From NCBI GenBank assembly GCA_910592005.1, contig CAJVPP010003031.1, positions 1 through 12,799 of the forward strand: a stretch of 12,799 nt of DNA. Direction: 5' to 3'. Numbering within the stretch: position 1 is the stretch's first letter; every line of letters starts with the position of its first letter. Both the position numbers and the translations under genes were made by a program. Under the pieces are notes generated by a model that saw only the letters and a program-made list of their open reading frames with translations, was not told the origin of the DNA and ran no database searches. This document shows positions 51-12,702 of this stretch, piece by piece. The stretch is from Funneliformis mosseae. Lineage: Eukaryota; Glomeromycota; Glomeromycetes; Glomerales; Glomeraceae.

Positions 51-3000
51 CTAAAATAAAAATAAATTAATTTAAAACTTATAATTTAAAACTAAATATA
101 ATTATAAATTTATACCTCATTTAAAAATTTCTCATTTAGATTTGATGATTTATCAAAACTTTTAAGAATAATATCAATATTACCATTTCTAATCCAATTA
201 TTATTATTGTATGAATATGATTTAATAAATCCATCAATCCAAGTTGCTTTATATATAACGCTAAATCCTCCTTGATCAAAATATTTAATATTTTTAAATC
301 TATCATAAGAAATCCATTCAAATAGTTGTTTTTTATTTTGAGCATTCATTTGAATAGTTTGAATAAATTCATCAATAAATTTATTTTTGCTAGTCCAATT
401 AGAAAAACTTTGTTGAAATAAATTAGAATAACATTCTTTACACCATTCGCAACCAGTATTTTTTTTATTACAATTTAAGCAATTTTCTTATTTTCTAAAT
501 AATTATTTTATAGTATTAATATTACAATTATTATATTATTATTATTTTAAAATAAAAATATAATACTTACTTAATAGATATATTTATATATTATATTAAT
601 AATTTAAGTTAAAAATATAAAATATTAAATAAAAAATCTTTACCTTCTTTAATAATATATTAAATTTTAAATAAAAATTTAATTGGCTTTAAATTATAAT
701 AAAAAGTATAATTAAAATCTAACAATCAGTAAAAATAACTTACTATCTATTATATTATTAAATATTAATTATTTTTTTAAATAAAAATTTAGTTTATTTT
801 AAAATATAATATAAAATACAATTGAATATTAATAATCAATAAAAAATAACTTACAATCTAAATTATTAATTAATTTATAAATAAAAATTTAATTAACTTT
901 AAATTACATAAAAAGTATCATTAAATACTAATAATCAATAAAAATAACTTACCATCTATAGGATTTTTAAATAAAAAATTTAGTTAACTTTAAATTACAG
1001 TAATAAGTATAATTAAATACTAATAATTAATAAAAATAACTTACGCCCTAATAAAATTTAAATAAAAAATTAACTTTAAATTACCATAATAAGTATAATT
1101 AAATACTAATAATAAATAAAAATAACTTACATACTAATAAATAAAATTTAAATAAAATTTTGTTAATTTTAAATTACAGTAAACAGTATAATTAAATACT
1201 GATAATCAATAAAAATAACTTACTATCTATAATATTATTAATTATTATTTTAAATAAAAATTTTAGTTGACTTTAAATTATACTAACAAATATCATTAAA
1301 TACTGATAATAATTTACATGCTAAAAAAATTTATTTTTTTTAAATAAAAACTTAAATTTCAGTAACAAGTATAATTAAATACTAATAATTAATTCAATAA
1401 AAATAACTTACCTACTAATAAAATTTATTTTTTTAAATAAAAAATTTAGTTAATTTTAAATTACAATAACAAGTATAATTAAATACTAATAATCAATAAA
1501 TAATTTACAATCTATAGGATTTTTTAAATAAAAAATTTAGTTGATTTTAATTATAATAACAAATACAATTAAATACTAATAATTAATTTAATAAAAATAA
1601 CTTACCCACTAATAAAATTTATTTTTTTAAATAAAAAATTTAGTTTACTTCAAATTACAATAACAAATATAATTAAATACTAATAATTAATAAAAATAAC
1701 TTACTATCTATAGGATATTTTAAATCAAAAATTTAGTTAATTTTAAATTACAATAACAAAAATAATTAAATACTTATAATTAATAAAAATAACTAACCAT
1801 CTATAGGATTTTTAAATAAAAATTTAGTTAACTTTAAATTACAATAACAAGTATAATTAAATACTAATAATTAATAAAATAACTTACCATCTATAGAATT
1901 TTTTAAATAAAAAATTTAGTTGACTTTAAATTACAGTAATAAATATAATTAAATACTGAAAGTAAATAAAAATAATTTACGTTCTATAGGATTTTTTAAA
2001 TAAAAAATTTAGTTGATTTTAAATTACAGTAATAAGTATAATTAAATACTAATAATCAATTCAATAAAAATAACTTACCTTCTATTATATTATTAATTTA
2101 TTTTTTTAAATAAAAAATTTAGTTAACTTTAATTTATAATAACTAACAGTATAATTAATTACTAATAATTAATAAAAATAGCTTACCATCTATAGAATAT
2201 TTTAAATAAAATATTTAGTTAACTTTAAATTATAATAACAAGTATAATTAAATACTAATCAATAAAAATAATTTACCATCTATAGGAATTTTTAAATAAA
2301 AAATTTAGTTGTCTTTAATTTGTAGTAACTAACAGTATAATTAAATACTAATAATTAATAAAAATAGCTTACTATCTATAGGATTTTTTAAATAAGAAAT
2401 TTAGTTAACTTTAAATTACAGTAACAAGTATAATTAAATACTAATAATCAATAAAAATAACTTACAATCTATAGGATTTTTTAAATAAAAAATTTAGTTA
2501 ATTTTAAATTACAATAACAAGTATAATTAAATACTAATAATTAATAAAAATAACTTACATACTAATAAAATTTAAATAAAAAATATTATTGACTTTAAAT
2601 TACGATAATAAGTATAATATATGCTGATAATCAAAAATAACTTACATCCTAATAAAATTTAAATAAAAAATTTAATTAACTTTAAATTATAATAACAAGT
2701 ATAATTAAATACTAATAATCAATAAAAATAACTTACCATCTATAGGATTTTTTAAATAAAAATTTAGTTGATTTTAAATTACAGTAACAAGTACAATTAA
2801 ATATTAATAAACAATTCAATAAAAATAACTTACCCTCTAATAAAATTTATTTTTTTAAATAAAAAATTTAGTTGATTTTAAATTACAGTAACAAGTATAA
2901 TTAAATACTAATAAACAATTCAATAAAAATAATTTACCCTCTAATAAAATTTATTTTTTTAAATAAAAATTTAGTTAACTTCAAATTATAATAACAAGTA

Positions 3001-5580
3001 TAATTAAATACTAATAACTAATAAAAATAACTTACTATCTATAGGATATTTTAAATCAAAAATTTAGTTAATTTTAAATTACAATAATAAGAATAATTAA
3101 ATGCTGATAATCAATAAAAATAACTTACTATCTATTATATTATTTTATTTTTTAAATAAAAAATATAGTTGACTTTAAATTACAATAATAAGTATAATTA
3201 AATACTGATAATTAATAAAAATAATACATCTATAGGATTGTTAAATAAAAAATTAAGTTGATTTTAAATTACAGTAACAATTATAATATAATACTAATAA
3301 TCAATAAAAATAACTTACATCTTAATAAAATTTAAAAAAAATTTAATTGACTTTAAATTACAGTAACAAGTATAATTAAATACTGATGATTAATAAAAAT
3401 AACTTACTATCTATAGTATTTTTAAATAAAAAATTTAGTTAAATTTAAATTATAGTAAAAAATATAATTAAATACTGATAATTAATAAAATAACTTACTG
3501 TCTATTATATTTTTAATTATTAATTATTTTTTATATAAAAAATTTAGTTGACTTTAAATTATAGTAAAAAGTATAATTAAATATTATTAATTTATAAAAA
3601 ATAATTTACCATCTAATATATTATTAATTAATAATTATTTGTTTAAATAAAAATTTTAATTAAGTTTAAATTACAGTAAAAAGTATAATAAATACTAGTA
3701 ATTAATAAAAATAATTTACAATCTATTATATTATTAATTATTAAATATTTATTATTTAATAAAAAAATTTAATTAATTTTAAATTACAATAAAGTATAAT
3801 TAAATATTGATAATCAATAAAATTTACTTACAATCTATATTTTTTAAAAATAAAATATTTAGTTGATTTTAATTAAATACTAATAATTAATAAAAATAAC
3901 TTACATCCTAATAAAATTTAAAAAAATTTAGTTGACTTTAAATTACATAACAAGTATAATTAAATACTGATAATTAATAAAAATAACTTACTATCTATAG
4001 TATTTTTTAAATAAAAAATTAATTGACTTTAAATTATAATAAAAATTATAATTAAATAATAATAATAATAATCAATAAAAATAACTTACCTCCTAATAAA
4101 ATTTATTTTTTTAAATAAAAATTTTAGTTAAGTTTAAATTATAATAAAAAGTATAATTAAATACTAATAATTGATAAAAATAACTTACTGACTATTATTT
4201 TATTAATTATTAATTATTTTTTTAAATAAAAAATTTAATTAAATTTAACTTACAGTAAAAAGTATAATAAATACTGATGATTAATAAAAATAACTTACTC
4301 GCTTTAATAATATTTTATTTTTTAAATAAAAATTTAGTTAACAATAAAAAAGTATAATTAAATACTAATAATAACTTACTCACTAATATAATTTATTTAT
4401 TTATATAAAAATTTAGTTGACAATAAAAAGTATAATTAATACTGATAATCAATAAAAATAACTTACTGTCTATTGTATTATTAATTATTAATTAATTTTT
4501 AAATAAGCAATTAAATTAACTTTAAATTATAATAATTAATTAATTAATATCTTACTTTCTGTAATATTATAAATAATATTAATAATTTTATTTAAATATA
4601 ATAAAAATTTATAAAAATAATTTACCATCTACATTATTAATATTTTATTTTTAATAATTAAGTTTAAAGTATAAAAAATAGTATAATTAAACATAAATTA
4701 TTAATATAAATAATTTACCATCTAAAATATTATTAATTATTAAAAATTTTAATAAAATAAATAAATCAAATCAAATTTAAATTAAAATATAAAAAATAAA
4801 TAATTTACTCCCTATAGTATTATTTATTATTAAATATTATTTAAATAATAGTTTAATCAAATTAAAATTATATTCTTATAATATAATAAAAATTAAATAG
4901 CTTACAATCTAAATATTATTATCCATTAAATTTTTTTTTAAAAAATATTAATTATTAAATAATTGTATAAATAAAAAAAATAAAATAATGTTTATTACCA
5001 TTTAATTCTTTTAATGTAGGAATAATATTAGAAGTATCTGTAATTGGATCTAATATAATATATATATTTTTAAAATTAATTACTAATGTTATAGCAAAAT
5101 CTAATATTTAAATAATTTATTTTTATTTTAACATCTAAATTAATAAATTATAATATTTATAATTAATTATATTTGCTATTATGCTTACCTTTATTACTTG
5201 AAACTAATTTTATATTAAATAAAAACATAATTAAAGAATTAACAATATATAGTTAGAATTAATTTCATAATAATTTGTTCAAAATATAATTTAATTAATA
5301 AAGAATTATATTTTGATTTAAAAATAGATTATAGATAGATAAAAATATATTACCATTTAATTCTTTTAATGTAGGAATATTTGAAACTGGCTCTAATATA
5401 ATGTATTTATTTTTGAGAAATTTTTGAAATTAATTACTAATTATACAGTATATTTAAACGTTTATAATAAATGGTATTACCTTTTATTTCTTTTAATGAG
5501 GATGTTTCCTTAGCATCTGAAACTGGCTCTAATGTGAACTTAGGTTTTTTTTTTAAAAGAAATTTTTTATTGTCAGACAT
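1..5580 (-). CDS. Rhizophagus-type protein kinase gene with a one-codon microexon array (partial, 3' end off the left edge)
   Basis: Spliced minus-strand gene. Proposed exons in order: 5580-5481, 5392-5354, 5203-5189, 5049-4999, 45 three-nucleotide microexons between 4908 and 567, 486-116, and 50-1 (continuing off the window). Junctions up to the kinase exon are phase 1 and the 116/50 junction is phase 0; 100+39+15+51+135+371 nt gives exactly 237 codons, so the arithmetic closes. The ATG at 5580 has an in-frame TAA a few codons upstream, which excludes an N-terminal extension. The product would be a leader with repeated [ED]P[VI]..LKELN motifs, a 45-residue Asp/Asn/Tyr-rich microexon segment, a Cys-rich motif and the start of a kinase domain. 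It is probably a cytosolic Ser/Thr or Tyr-like kinase; the substrate is unknown. The weakest point is whether the microexons are really spliced in. An alternative is that the kinase starts at a local ATG near 349 and the array is an untranslated or decaying repeat. Confidence 0.65.
116..486 (-). CDS. Kinase exon: Cys-rich motif and start of the kinase domain
   Basis: A 371-nt exon (phase 1 in, phase 0 out). The acceptor is AATAAG at 487-489; the nearer TTTAG would bring in a stop in phase 1. The donor GAG|GTATAAAT is at 115. Residues start KNCLNCNKKNTGCEWCKEC, a CxxC...CxxCxxC cluster of the kind that precedes many Rhizophagus kinases and may bind a metal. Then come QQSFSNWTSKNKFIDEF, a linker, FEWISYDRF, and the kinase N-lobe: glycine-rich loop DQGGFSVIYKATW (Ser where most relatives have Gly) and a likely ATP-lysine in the strand IDIILKSF. 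It ends at FLNE, where these kinases usually have an intron before the C-helix region. The kinase assignment is strong; activity cannot be judged because the catalytic and activation loops lie outside the window. Confidence 0.85.
567..4908 (-). repeat. Tandem array of about 47 intron units separated by 3-nt microexons
   Basis: The unit is about 94 bp (spacing 70-112). On the minus strand each unit is donor GTAAGTTATTTTTATT, a middle with AGTATTTAATTATAC, a branch-like GTTAACTAAAT, then an acceptor of type CCTATAG, TTATTAG or ATAATAG. Triplets between AG and GT, given by lowest plus coordinate: 4906 ATT, 4809 GGA, 4719 ATG, 4626 ATG, 4556 AAA, 4467 ACA, 4380 TGA, 4299 CGA, 4189 TCA, 4090 GAG, 3992 ATA, 3905 GAT, 3832 ATT, 3720 ATT, 3610 ATG, 3499 ACA, 3408 ATA, 3319 AT, 3228 AT, 3129 ATA, 3036 ATA, 2938 AGG, 2834 AGG, 2737 ATG, 2646 GAT, 2559 TAT, 2466 ATT, 2373 ATA, 2277 ATG, 2187 ATG, 2079 AAG, 1981 AAC, 1888 ATG, 1798 ATG, 1705 ATA, 1606 TGG, 1509 ATT, 1412 TAG, 1318 CAT, 1224 ATA, 1131 TAT, 1045 GGC, 953 ATG, 855 ATT, 744 ATA, 644 AAG, 567 TAA. 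Read in phase 1 this gives DWNDENMTIRDRYYYDN, then NNKEDGLYYNDEEHDD, then MDLAYIWHDYKV. The copies nearest 5 kb are the most diverged. All calls are by eye; the last site (567) is weak. Confidence 0.75.
3228..3322 (-). other. Two decayed array units (2-nt gaps), predicted to be skipped
   Basis: At 3319-3320 the acceptor TTAG of the usual TTATTAG-GAT-GTAAG unit has become TTAA, one base different from the units at 2646 and 3905, leaving AG-AT-GT. At 3228-3229 a small deletion turns CTATAG-ATG-GTAAGTT into CTATAG-AT-GTATT. Including either or both 2-nt exons shifts the frame and brings in stops. Skipping both (one intron from 3407 to 3132, about 276 nt) keeps phase 1 and an open frame. They are the only two of 47 sites that break the three-base rule, and they are neighbours. 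Confidence 0.6.
4999..5049 (-). CDS. Exon 4, second copy of the DPI..LKELN repeat
   Basis: A 51-nt phase 1-1 exon. The acceptor is ...TATATTAG at 5050-5051 and the donor GTAATAAA at 4998. It encodes DPITDTSNIIPTLKELN, homologous to exon 2 with four extra residues. The last 20 or so bases and the donor are nearly identical to exon 2, which points to a duplication of exon plus intron. It is the last ordinary exon before the three-nucleotide array and sets the phase-1 carry (G) that makes the array readable. Confidence 0.65.
5189..5203 (-). CDS. Exon 3, 15-nt microexon
   Basis: A 15-nt exon flanked by the acceptor ...AAAATTAG (5204-5205) and the strong donor GTAAGCAT (5188). In phase 1-1 it adds VSSNK. 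The length is a multiple of three, so inclusion or skipping preserves the frame. It is intermediate in size between the 39- and 51-nt exons and the 3-nt ones downstream. It rests on splice-site signals alone, so alternative borders are possible. Confidence 0.5.
5354..5392 (-). CDS. Exon 2, first copy of the EPV..LKELN repeat
   Basis: A 39-nt phase 1-1 exon. The acceptor ends ...TTATATTAG at 5393-5394 and the donor is GTAATATA at 5353. With the carried G it encodes EPVSNIPTLKELN, a near repeat of the end of exon 1 (EPVSDAKETSSLKEIK). The acceptor AG lies inside what was coding sequence in exon 1 (the TTA GAG of Leu-Glu), so the duplicated exon seems to have recruited its splice site from coding DNA. 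No biochemical function is recognisable; it is probably a linker repeat. Confidence 0.65.
5481..5580 (-). CDS. Exon 1, start codon and basic leader
   Basis: The exon is 100 nt (33 codons plus one base), from ATG at 5578-5580 to the donor GTAATACC (intron starts at 5480). The peptide begins MSDNKKFLLKKKPKF, which is strongly basic, and continues TLEPVSDAKETSSLKEIK before the split Gly/Glu codon. It has no signal-peptide character. The second half (LEPVS...SLKEIK) is the template of the motif that recurs in exons 2 and 4. The exon is in phase 1 with exon 2. An in-frame TAA just upstream supports this start. Codon use is mixed, less extreme than in the array. Confidence 0.7.
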
Positions 5581-5640
5581 TTTATAAATTTATAAGAAAG
5601 AGAGAAAATATTTTTTTTTCAAAATGTACGATCATTTATG
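5581..5640 (-). promoter_or_regulatory. Probable promoter and leader of the kinase gene
   Basis: Upstream of ATG 5580 the minus strand carries a pyrimidine run (TTTTCTCTCTTTC) followed by TATAAATTTATAAA. CT-rich initiators and TATA-like boxes close to the start codon are common in fungal genes. The T-run further up marks the edge where composition changes from the AT-extreme array side to ordinary intergenic sequence. This is inference from position and base pattern only. Confidence 0.35.
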
Positions 5641-9203: not shown

Positions 9204-9977
9204 TTATTTGGCCAAGTTTTGAATTTTTTTCGCCATTGCTTGCTTGTGTTGGCGGGAATACTGACTGATCCAGTTTTCAATTGTTTTCAACTTTGGTATA
9301 TCGCTCTCTTCGAGCTCATCTATTTCCACTTTCTTTTGCAGCGCTACAAGCATTTTTTTTGCTGAATATCGCTCACTTTTGTGGGTGTCACTGGCGTGAA
9401 AGAAACCTTTCAATAATTCCATTACTCCTTCAGGTATGTGTTTTCTGCCACCTTTCTTTCTGTATTCCTGGTTTTCTTTTAAAGCCCAACCAGATCGAAA
9501 ATAGTTGACTCTGTAGAAACCAATATCATCAGATATTATATAAAATATCGTGATATTTTCCTATTTTTTTTGAAGCAGTTGAACTCACTCGCTTTCTATT
9601 TCTATTTTCTTTTTTTTCTCCTTTCCCTTTTTAATCCTTATTTCCGAAATATTATTATTTTTCACCATGCTATTTATGTTAATCGCTGTTCTTGCTTCTA
9701 CATAACAAAAAGAAGATTAGTTGATTTAGTTGGTTAGTTGGATTTCATTACAAATTCAATTGCAAAAAAAATTTTTATTACCTTCTATTTTATTTATCAT
9801 TTCACATGCAATATTTTTGTTCAAAATTGCAATTAACTCTGGCCGATTCTCTTTCTCACCACAATACAGAGATCTTTTTTCTAACTCCTCTTTAATATTA
9901 TTTTTCATCAACCTCTTTATCCTAGCTATTTTATTTTGGGAGGAGTTATGATTTATTGATAGTAATGAATTATCCAT
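9204..9977 (-). CDS. SAP-motif protein, three exons, probable 3' part of a transposase-type gene
   Basis: Exons 9977-9782, 9697-9589 and 9510-9204. Donors are GTAATAAA and GTGAGTTC; acceptors are TTATGTAG (preceded by the branch-like CAACTAAT) and TTTCTACAG. Exon lengths 196+109+307 give 204 codons: 203 aa and a stop. Residues 27-55 (NNIKEELEKRSLYCGEKENR...ELIAIL) fit the SAP helix-turn-helix that binds AT-rich DNA. A lysine-rich linker follows (EIRIKKGKEKKKKIEIESE), then a C-terminal domain beginning VNYFRSGWALKENQEYRKK and including KSERYSAKKMLVALQKK and PKLKTIENWISQYSRQHK, which may be another helical DNA-binding unit. An in-frame TAA precedes the ATG. One base lost near 9965 would join it to the pseudogene just upstream, so it is probably the C-terminal end of that gene rather than an independent one. 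Confidence 0.6.
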
Positions 9978-10024
9978 TTAGAATCTGTATTTGTATGCGT
10001 GGAAATTAAGGGATTTGGTCGATA

Positions 10025-10318
10025 TTATTCATCACCCTTCATTGATTTACTAATAGTAGAAGGCGAGAAGTCATTCCATTTTTCAAAATTGGGAAGAGCA
10101 CGACAACGCATAAAACTACTGAATTTTCCATCAACAGGCCACTGAAATTCAAACTAATTGGAAATGCCAGCTATTACAGGTTTTTTCCCTTTCTGTTTCC
10201 GTTCCGGATTAATATTTGCAATTGCTGTTCCTCTAATACCTTTGATTGCTTTTTCTATGTCTTGACCTTCAGATATATTGTATCCTAGCCTAACGTATCG
10301 TTTGATTGCATGAGAAAT
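10025..10318 (-). pseudogene. Pseudogene exon block 5 (C-terminal to the core)
   Basis: Follows a 60-nt intron (10319-10378, GTTAATAA...TTTCTAG), phase 0. It reads ISHAIKRYVRLGYNISEGQD, then KGIRGTAIANINPERKQKGK, GISN-stop-FEFQWPVDGKF, RALPNFEKWNDFSPSTISK and GDE-stop. Reading on through the TAA gives YRPNPLISTHTNTDSKWII, which reaches the start of the SAP-motif frame with a one-base offset. This supports one ancestral gene across 12702-9204. Confidence 0.65.
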
Positions 10319-10378
10319 CTAGAAATATAATAAAGGTTTGTAAGCTATATTTTCACATTATACAATCTTTTTATTAAC

Positions 10379-11080
10379 CTGGGTATGATATGAATCGATA
10401 GTGGTTTTAGCTTCTCCTGCTTCCAAAAAAATCCAACTTCGAATTTCCATATCATACCAAGATTTCCAGTTTGTAATTATAGCTATTAACTCAGCACAAT
10501 AATAATAGACGCCATTATCAGATAAAATCCTTACCCACTTCAGTTTTTTTAAATGAATTAAAGACAACTTCAAAGCATGAGGTTGTGAATAACGCGTCTT
10601 GAACTGTATCTGAGGACCAATGATCAAAAGCTTTGATTTCTAATTCATGGTTATTAGCCTTTGTGTATACCAATATTGTATGTAGTGTTCACCCAGATTT
10701 TCCATAAAAGTCTGATTTTACCTCTCGTGTTGATTTTGGTAAAATTCTCATTTTATAATCCACCACAATAACAGCGCCTTCTTCACAAGAGTAAGAAAGT
10801 TTGCATTAAATTGAGTATTGAGGTATGTCTTGTGTACTTGATAAGACCAGTAATATTGAAGTTTTTTTCTATTTTCTATAATTTATTTGAAATCATTTGG
10901 CATAAGATAAACTAATTTATAAAAAAATTCTGATATCTTATTACATTGGTTGCAATTAGAAAAGTGGGGCTTGTCATATTCTCCAAAAGCATGTGGAAGA
11001 CAGTGTTCAAGACATTCAACATGATAAGTATGTCCTAGACAATCTACTTAAAGTTCTTTTTCATATTCATACTTTAAATG
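10379..11080 (-). pseudogene. Pseudogene exon block 4: DDE-like catalytic core
   Basis: It starts HLKYEYEKEL-stop-VDCLGHTYH, then a Cys/His cluster (HVECLEHCLPHAFGEY, HFSNCNQCNK) that could be a zinc-binding module. Next come LQYYWSYQVHKTYLNTQFNA, a one-base loss near 10799, and LSYSCEEGAVIVVDYKMRIL with a candidate first Asp. After GKSG-stop-TLHTILVY and AFDHWSSDT there is a frameshift in an A-run (about 10545), then KWVRILSDNGVYYYCAEL (second Asp) and WIFLEAGEAKTTIDSYHTQ (Glu). The D...D...E order fits an RNase-H-fold transposase or integrase core; spacing was not compared with a family model. The acceptor at 11081-11082 is one of two possible. Confidence 0.65.
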
Positions 11081-11189
11081 CTGGCGAACAAATTTAAGTT
11101 CTGTAATTAATTGATTTTAATAAATTTTTTTGAGTAATTATTTTATTATTTTTATTAATCACAACTTCTAACAATATATTTATATTTAC

Positions 11190-11609
11190 TTGTTGCTCTT
11201 TTTCGCTTATTCTTTCTATTATCAAAGTCTTTAGATCATCAAATACACCATATTCATATTCAGAATAAATACCACACAACCCTTTCAGATCTTCTCTATA
11301 TACATAAGGTCCATCTTTTAAATGTGCCAAAAATGTTGTTCTTTTCATACCAATGGGATATAACTTAAAGAATTTTTGCCACAATATTTCTTTTTGATTT
11401 TTTAGATATTTGAGCAGTTCACCAATTTTCGTATCCACCTTGTAAGAACTCAAATTTACAATATTTTTATCAGCAAAGAAATTCTGAAACTGGTTTTCCA
11501 TTTCTTCAATAATGCGAACTCGTGTAATAATTGATTTATCTATTACTGCACATTCTGGACCATTAACTTCGCAGTGATATCTAGCTTTTGCTATTATTTT
11601 AGACAATAC
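11190..11609 (-). pseudogene. Pseudogene exon block 3
   Basis: A 420-nt exon, 140 codons without a stop, following a 76-nt intron. It starts VLSKIIAKARYHCEVNGPEC, and includes KIGELLKYLKNQKEILWQKF, YPIGMKRTTFLAHLKDGPYV and YREDLKGLCGIYSEYEYGVF. The exon is complete in phase 0 and ends at a GTAAATAT donor (11189). The first in-frame initiator-like codon is TTG, not ATG, so this is an internal exon. It is the best preserved long block of the pseudogene. Confidence 0.65.
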
Positions 11610-11685
11610 CTATTTATAATATTGGTCGCAATTGTAAATATATGATGAGCATGCATTAATGTAAGTAAATAATAATAATATTTAC

Positions 11686-11922
11686 CTTGAGATTTTTTTG
11701 AAGTTCTTCATATTCAAAATTATTAGCAATTATTGATAAAGTTCGTATTTTTTCATCATCGCCTGTTTTATTCTCCTCTAGTGATTTTTGAAAATACTTC
11801 CAAAATTGATTGCTTAAGTTAAACACATTTGCTGGGATAGCATTTAGGAACCCGTTACAATATAAATTTTTCAAGGTATTTTGATCTACCAATGGATTAG
11901 GGTTTTAAGACCAAAATTCATA
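11686..11922 (-). pseudogene. Pseudogene exon block 2
   Basis: A 237-nt exon between acceptor AATTTAG (11923-11924) and donor GTAAATAT (11685), phase 0 at both ends. It reads YEFWS-stop-NPNPLVDQNTLKNLYCNG, then FLNAIPANVFNLSNQFWKYF and EENKTGDDEKIRTLSIIAN up to LQKNLK. The single stop (11905) would be CAA to TAA if Gln was ancestral. No ATG is present, so the open part is not an independent gene. Confidence 0.65.
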
Positions 11923-11988
11923 CTAAATTGAATATTTGATTTAAATTAATTGGTTTTAGCAAAAATTATTTATTAACAAATATATTAC

Positions 11989-12702
11989 CTCCAATTGATC
12001 TTTAGAAAATGGTGTAATATTTGTACATCCAGCAGCCTTCAGCATTACGTGTTATGCTCAAAGTTCACATTCATTGTGCAAATAATTTGGTAGATATATT
12101 TTTTTTAGTGTTTCACATAATTCAATGATTGTGCTTTCCTGTGCAAGCTAATTTTGAAATAATTGTCGCCAATTAATATTACTAAGTGTTTGTTTTCTCA
12201 AATAATAATTAAAAATATTATCTATAAGTGTTTCATTATTCTAAAATGTGGGCAAGCATGTAGGAATTTGTTATGCGTTAATAGTCTTTTGCGTCATTGA
12301 ATGTTCTAAACCAAACAGTTGTATACTATGATATTTTCTATAAACCCCACATTTTTCCATACTTTCATTGGACTAGAACTAAAAAAAACACTGGCTCATT
12401 GTCTTTTGGATATATTGAGATTTCATAATTTTCAGATCAAATTATTTGAACAAATAAAACACGTTTTTTATTGTAATCACTGATAAATAATGCAGTATAA
12501 CTTTCTATTATATTTTTTTGTCTGCCAACGCCTATATTTGTAATATACACTAAAATCTTACTATCTATTTTAATAGCGAATGCTTGAAAATGGAGATCTT
12601 TCAATGAGGCTTCCAGTAATTCATTATCATCCCAACCTAAAACAAGGGGTCCAGAAAATTTTGTCTTTAAATTAGAAAAAAGTCACTGATATAAACTTGT
12701 TA
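11989..12702 (-). pseudogene. Pseudogene exon block 1 (N-terminal part)
   Basis: Reads TSLYQ-stop-LFSNLKTKFSGPLVLGWDD, then a stretch including QAFAIKIDSKILVYITN, IIESYTALFISDYNKKRVLF, a stop, ENYEISIYPKDNEPVFFLVL, a frameshift over a T-run, then MEKCGVYRKYHSIQLFGLEH, NETLIDNIFNYYLRKQTLS, NINWRQLFQN-stop-LAQES and KAAGCTNITPFSKDQLE at the donor GTAATATA (11988). It has six or more stops and one frameshift. No catalytic motif is seen; it may be a regulatory or DNA-binding part. The upstream end is lost to the insertion at 12703. Confidence 0.65.

Follow-up and report, generated by a model that had tools for sequence, protein, structure and literature searches.

The minus strand of contig C3031 of Funneliformis mosseae raises the question of whether an AT-rich tandem repeat that precedes a kinase exon is a satellite within one long intron or a run of exons of one codon each. 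The window, that is the whole contig of 12,799 nt, was analysed together with the genome assembly to which it belongs (82 Mb in 4154 contigs). A preliminary description had reported that 45 of 47 repeat units between 567 and 4908 read AG-NNN-GT on the minus strand, with more than 12 different triplets. Our recount agrees on both points, giving 44 listed units plus a terminal TAA unit, and 20 different triplets, TAA included. The introns of this array measure 67–109 nt with a single exception of 276 nt, which spans both broken units, and the tandem repeat has periods near 93 and 276. It had also been proposed that about 45 consecutive one-codon exons lie between 4999 and 486. This proposal, in which splicing itself is inferred from sequence, withstood four tests: the absence of stops at neighbour joins only, the conservation of six exons, the higher G+C content of the triplets and a looser hold of stop avoidance where the kinase exon itself contains stops. 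The array design was found to be common to a large gene family, beyond the single gene of the preliminary description. With a probability that we put at about 0.9, 45 consecutive one-codon exons are predicted to encode a 45-residue segment that lies after an N-terminal leader and before the kinase exon.

The predicted gene model is given in Table 1. Exon 1 would provide the first residues of the protein, MSDNKKFLLKKKPKF, and the leader exons of 39, 15 and 51 nt each have a length that is a multiple of three. Arrays of paralogs are likewise preceded by similar exons of the type ..PTLKELN. When the two broken units are skipped, the predicted array product is DWNDENMTIRDRYYYDNNNKEDGLYYNDEEHDDMDLAYIWHDYKV; both of these units are apparently removed within the 276-nt intron. 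A TAA or TTA unit occupies the terminal place of the array in many paralogs. The kinase exon opens with CxxC..CxxC, followed by the beginning of a kinase domain, and the gene runs beyond the contig end, the window carrying its 5' half. The 233 residues predicted from the window itself, which end early in the kinase domain, had no match in Pfam. The fuller paralog on C2991, with exons joined by eye, matched PF07714 with an E value of 6e-27, and the named matches of the protein searches were kinase-like proteins of Rhizophagus, a plant-root symbiont. Together, these results show that the array genes belong to a Glomeromycotina kinase-like family. Elsewhere in the window, several open frames of 80–170 codons were observed on the minus strand at 9204–12682, which might be fragments of a single gene that is broken or rich in introns. 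A Pfam scan of five open frames from the right half of the window produced no match above the curated cut-offs.

Table 1. Predicted features of the array gene in the window (C3031) and arrays of a second kinase subfamily. A slash marks a predicted splice junction or a codon split.
Feature	Position	Strand	Description
Exon 1, kinase-family gene	5481..5580	-	100 nt from ATG; end phase 1 (..AAAG/gtaata)
Exon 2	5354..5392	-	39 nt, phase 1: EPVSNIPTLKELN
Candidate 15-nt exon	5189..5203	-	phase 1, VSSNK; based on splice sites only
Last leader exon	4999..5049	-	51 nt, phase 1: DPITDTSNIIPTLKELN
Array, 47 units (45 intact)	567..4908	-	AG/NNN/GT putative one-codon exons, AT-rich introns of about 90 nt
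One-codon exons 1–6	4465..4908	-	ATT GGA ATG ATG AAA ACA = DWNDEN; resembles seven paralogous array starts
Two broken units	3221..3322	-	donor lost at about 3227; acceptor altered at about 3319
Last one-codon exon	567..569	-	TAA, read G/TA A/AA = Val-Lys
Kinase exon	116..486	-	acceptor aataag/AAAATTGC, phase 1; donor gtataa inferred
One-codon arrays before divergent kinase subfamily	C237 20864–25300 (L009, L074); C1466 3166–6189 (L016)		subfamily motif ..KFIPFNQLINSKQLTTGGFGSIMKATW..

When the kinase exon was used as a query against the assembly, at least 154 matches were obtained, the window included (150 of 463 candidates scored), and a leader query (5200–5640) gave at least 49, again with the window (40 of 83 candidates scored). 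In the 30 best kinase loci, including the window, AG was located exactly 3 nt upstream of 139 of 145 GTAAGTTAT donors and at 0 nt from the donor in 3 of the 145; the stretches scanned for L038, L046 and L063 wrongly took in the kinase exon. Other exon lengths within the arrays were rejected, because AG at all other donor distances was at or below its background frequency of 0.035; an apparent 18-nt exon on C505, identified by inspection of a gap, is the one exception. No GTAAGTTAT donor was detected on the antisense strand of the 30 upstream stretches. Over the whole assembly, GTAAGTTATTTTTATT was found 430 times and AGNNNGTAAGTTATTTTTATT 377 times, so that 377 of 430 extended donors are preceded by AG-NNN, while controls with the pattern reversed matched 0 and 2 times. 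The first 100 listed places of AGNNNGTAAGTTATTTTTATT are spread over 33 contigs. Arrays count 45 units in the window and 13–41 in ten other genes studied at length. In these 11 genes the strict pattern recovers 98 of 294 units, and extrapolation from the exact pattern counts puts the possible total in the assembly at about 1,100 one-codon units, decayed copies included.

Detection of units by the intron core only was abandoned as too unspecific, 160 of 216 candidates being in the AG-NNN-GT register. The remaining 56, judged by eye, were mostly chance AT-rich matches or real units off register, and at least three were considered to be real broken units. Several irregular arrays were also observed. 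In L073 and L050 (contig C505), an apparent 18-nt exon in phase 1 lies in a 180-nt gap after a TTG unit; since it stands among one-codon exons, other multiples of three are possible. In L066 (C2991), array unit 4 is AAG followed by a GC donor (GCAAAT), and its inclusion gives the start DWIEEN. Array patterns at C650 16380–18564, C1065 13807–14324 and C1180 2887–5175 had no query-matched kinase exon in the fetched downstream stretch; these arrays may belong to other genes, be decayed copies, or have kinase exons beyond the stretch that was fetched.

Phase 1 is required by the leader exons as well as by the kinase exon, and the array must therefore be read in this phase. If it is translated, joins between neighbouring units must lack stop codons, whereas a junk array is free to contain them. 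The main set comprised the 11 genes, all with open kinase exons, and their 294 units, of which five were added by hand after inspection of gaps; units at most 135 nt apart were taken as neighbours. Not one stop was found at the 278 neighbour joins in phase 1. The phase 2 reading was rejected, as 83 of the 278 joins would be stops, and so was the phase 0 reading, in which triplets serve as whole codons (13 stops in 294). Joins that skip units carried stops in 9/262, 11/247, 15/233, 8/219 and 11/205 cases at lags 2 to 6 respectively, in total 54/1166, which is the rate predicted by shuffling. When the order of the units was shuffled within genes, a mean of 13.0 stops and a minimum of 3 were obtained, and none of 10,000 shuffles reached 0. 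After removal of the first six and the last two units, there were 0 stops in 191 joins, whereas shuffled orders had 8.2 on average and never fewer than 1. Likewise, AA, AG or GA never followed a triplet ending in T (0/74) and followed other triplets in 53 of 209 cases.

In an initial scan of 30 sequences by fixed pattern, 3 stops were found in 266 phase 1 joins and 85 in phase 2, compared with a shuffled mean of 10.7 and with 3 or fewer stops in 1 of 2000 shuffles. Two of the three stops belong to L038 and L047, whose kinase exon contains stops, and the third, in L064, was due to a unit missed by the pattern. For the 19 of the 30 loci outside the main set, joins were taken only from the 1,530 nt or less before the kinase exon. 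Ten of these loci have stops in the kinase exon and showed 3 join stops in 35; the nine others showed 1 in 54. Compared with 1/332 elsewhere, the 3/35 in loci with kinase-exon stops corresponds to a Fisher p of 0.003, although such p values are too small, because paralogs share ancestry and their joins are not independent; this and the five hand-added units make the probabilities only indicative. Loci whose kinase exon contains stops thus violate the neighbour-join rule more often. One observation counts against the main reading: L036 (C505, about 548, near the contig end) has an open kinase exon and a join stop, TAT followed by AGG, which may reflect either a decaying copy near the contig end or a skipped unit.

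Conservation at the protein level was observed at the array start, where six consecutive one-codon exons read xW[IN]x[EQ]N in 8 of the 11 genes. The window has DWNDEN, and seven paralogs have DWIKEN, DWIEEN, DWIVEN, DWIEEN, DWIEQN, DWIDEN and KWIDQN; the last, from C1717, is obtained with its own leader and would be EWIDQN if the leader were assumed to end in G. In all eight genes the tryptophan codon is split T/GG across exons 1 and 2, and triplets 2 and 5 are invariant. Between pairs of genes, triplets 1, 3, 4 and 6 are identical at frequencies of 0.75, 0.36, 0.14 and 0.18, and the bodies of introns 1–5 have a mean identity of 0.67 versus 0.60 for base-shuffled sequence; the divergence at exons 3, 4 and 6 and the residual likeness of the introns were counted against the main reading. 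Three genes are omitted from this comparison. The first unit of C3961 has an apparent exon of 4 nt, so that its array starts GIDEN, and the array starts of C3422 and C1847 resisted alignment; the 4-nt exon, one gap in the unit series of C3422 and two in that of C1847, the GC donor of C2991 and the two broken units of the window were also counted against the main reading. At the other end, six of seven translated arrays (L040 in part) finish with Val and one with Ile, and in the five arrays joined to a kinase exon Lys or Arg follows the terminal residue.

Asp, Asn, Glu and Tyr are abundant in the array segment, with Asp, Asn and Tyr at about the levels of shuffled triplets, and the segment contains an excess of Trp (19 versus 6.2 when shuffled), much of which comes from the shared array start. 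It may act as a linker of variable length, and one could guess that it serves the kinase as a spacer or for docking. In the 11 genes, triplet positions 1–3 have 22, 19 and 39% G+C, compared with mostly 1–7% at the adjoining variable intron positions and at most 11% besides the G at the fifth donor position. The 278 introns have a median length of 92 nt (range 65–109) and their lengths modulo 3 are distributed as 112, 70 and 96. A [TC]AACTAA box located 12–65 nt from the acceptor was found in a fraction of 0.42 of the introns and 0.00 of shuffled controls, and it may be the branch site; the general fungal branch motifs [CT]T[AG]A[CT] (0.76 versus 0.79 shuffled) and CTAA[CT] (0.05 versus 0.07) were not enriched.

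The same organisation was detected before a divergent kinase subfamily (Table 1), whose kinase exons align with the query along just 28 and 33 residues, with 43 and 39% identity and an E value of 0.001. AG is placed 3 nt before the donor in 9 of 10 cases on C237 and in 10 of 10 on C1466, and the two genes have no stop in 24 neighbour joins. The protein from C237, joined by eye, matches PF07714 with an E value of 7e-35.

These observations bear on three other ways of explaining the repeat. The array might be a satellite in one long intron from 4998 to 487, the splice-like sites being unused remnants of duplication. Its tandem arrangement and two broken units would be in line with this, and since leader and kinase exons share one phase, the frame remains open whether or not the array is included. 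A head-to-tail repeat without coding constraint does not, however, predict that stop avoidance is confined to lag 1 and phase 1, that the first six triplets are conserved as protein, that G+C is higher in the triplets than beside them, or that stop avoidance relaxes where the kinase exon contains stops. The repeat is tandem but coding constraint is present, and we regard an intronic satellite as very improbable. It is hardly credible at all that the units are recursive-splicing ratchet points for one long intron, with the three bases as a by-product, even though AG and GT are closely spaced, sequential removal is likely and recursive splicing has been discussed for a tiny exon in the available text of PMC4674806. 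Ratchet points, as described in the accessible part of PMC8605326, consist of a directly juxtaposed acceptor and donor; here the distance is 3 nt for 139 of the 145 donors and 0 nt for 3, and the triplets are under coding constraint.

A last alternative overlaps with the main reading and differs from it in the frequency of exon skipping. The one-codon exons would be real but mainly cassettes, whose stochastic or regulated inclusion would yield linkers varying in length and sequence, in the manner reported for micro-exon genes of flatworms. Because array exons are 3 nt long, nearly any skip keeps the frame, and with about 45 exons a low skipping rate would already make most mRNAs differ. Against this, joins at lags 2–6 carry stops at the compositional rate (54/1166), which gives no sign of selection keeping skipped products open and points to the fully included product as the one that selection maintains. 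A predominance of cassettes is therefore doubtful. The best reading is that the one-codon exons are real and mostly joined to their neighbours, as an extreme variant of micro-exon genes.

If the exons are joined in this way, the strong donor GTAAGTTAT and the TAG acceptor would mark each intron of about 90 nt as a recognised unit, and the array introns would be excised one after another. With stepwise removal, a 3-nt exon would never need to be defined from both sides, and its independence from any exonic signal would fit the free variation of the triplets. Intron definition and stepwise removal have been suggested for tiny plant exons in the available portions of PMC4674806 and PMC8831610. 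The translated product would contain every triplet joined to the next in phase 1, and an occasional exon skip would mostly cost one residue. The array probably lengthens or shortens through duplication or loss of intron-plus-codon units; both the variation in array length and the repeat periods near 93 and 276 are consistent with this. Since each unit carries exactly 3 exonic nt, such a gain or loss would change one residue with no frameshift. We consider it likely that in two subfamilies, dozens of loci and about 1,100 exons a variable N-terminal segment is built residue by residue through constitutive splicing, as an evolutionary in-frame ratchet.

A spliced array protein was searched for in a protein database and was present in none of the 7 matches of one search, nor in 21 examined among the 120 listed of 1269 matches of a second one; a third search gave one candidate, which did not match. 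These negative outcomes count against the main reading. Micro-exon genes are defined, in the available text of PMC7653826, by at least 7 exons, of which at least half are below 70 nt with a length that is a multiple of three, in runs of at least 4. The predicted transcripts, which have 45 consecutive 3-nt exons besides those of 39, 15 and 51 nt, fall within this definition. Like the micro-exon genes of schistosomes and tapeworms, as described in the same accessible literature, they show consecutive small exons with lengths mostly divisible by three and larger flanking exons. For flatworm micro-exons, however, that literature sets only an upper length bound of 36 or 70 nt, whereas the present arrays are counted runs of 13–45 exons, nearly all of exactly 3 nt, in fungal kinase genes. 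Genes of the schistosome type are further characterised by a signal peptide in the 5' exon and by alternative inclusion of micro-exons in transcripts.

Aphid bicycle and megacycle genes also have very many small exons sharing one phase, with more than 100 microexons in a megacycle gene (PMC9168663, in part). The internal exons of bicycle genes are, in that source, almost all in phase 2, whereas the leader, array and kinase exon described here are in phase 1. A megacycle protein has about 2000 residues, which requires exons well above one codon in length, compared with one codon each before the kinase domain. In the consulted portions of the flatworm and aphid literature, long runs of exactly one-codon exons are not described. 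A 1-nt exon is spliced in Arabidopsis APC11, and an alternatively spliced 3-nt exon is cited in the same article (PMC4674806); a 1-nt exon in Fusarium CYP621A has read support (PMC12940212). As presented in the accessible parts of these reports, each gene has one tiny exon, whereas dozens are consecutive here and recur throughout a family. The SP7-like effectors of Rhizophagus likewise form a family within the Glomeromycotina, contain repeat modules and have a conserved intron ahead of the first repeat, but they are effectors with signal peptides and not kinases (PMC11333574, in part); the word "microexon" is absent from the main text of that article. Among the titles and abstract openings of open-licence PMC articles, no report of one-codon exon arrays or of such Glomeromycotina genes was found.

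Gene-prediction pipelines overlook 3-nt exons. If the arrays are spliced as proposed, such pipelines will misread array genes, exon-definition models would be strained, and these genes would provide a natural system in which to test stepwise, intron-defined splicing. Confirmation by RNA would mean that the spliceosome joins dozens of consecutive 3-nt exons faithfully enough for selection to act on the product. For this kinase-like family, the arrays would then be a means of adding single residues to a protein, or removing them, without disturbing the reading frame.
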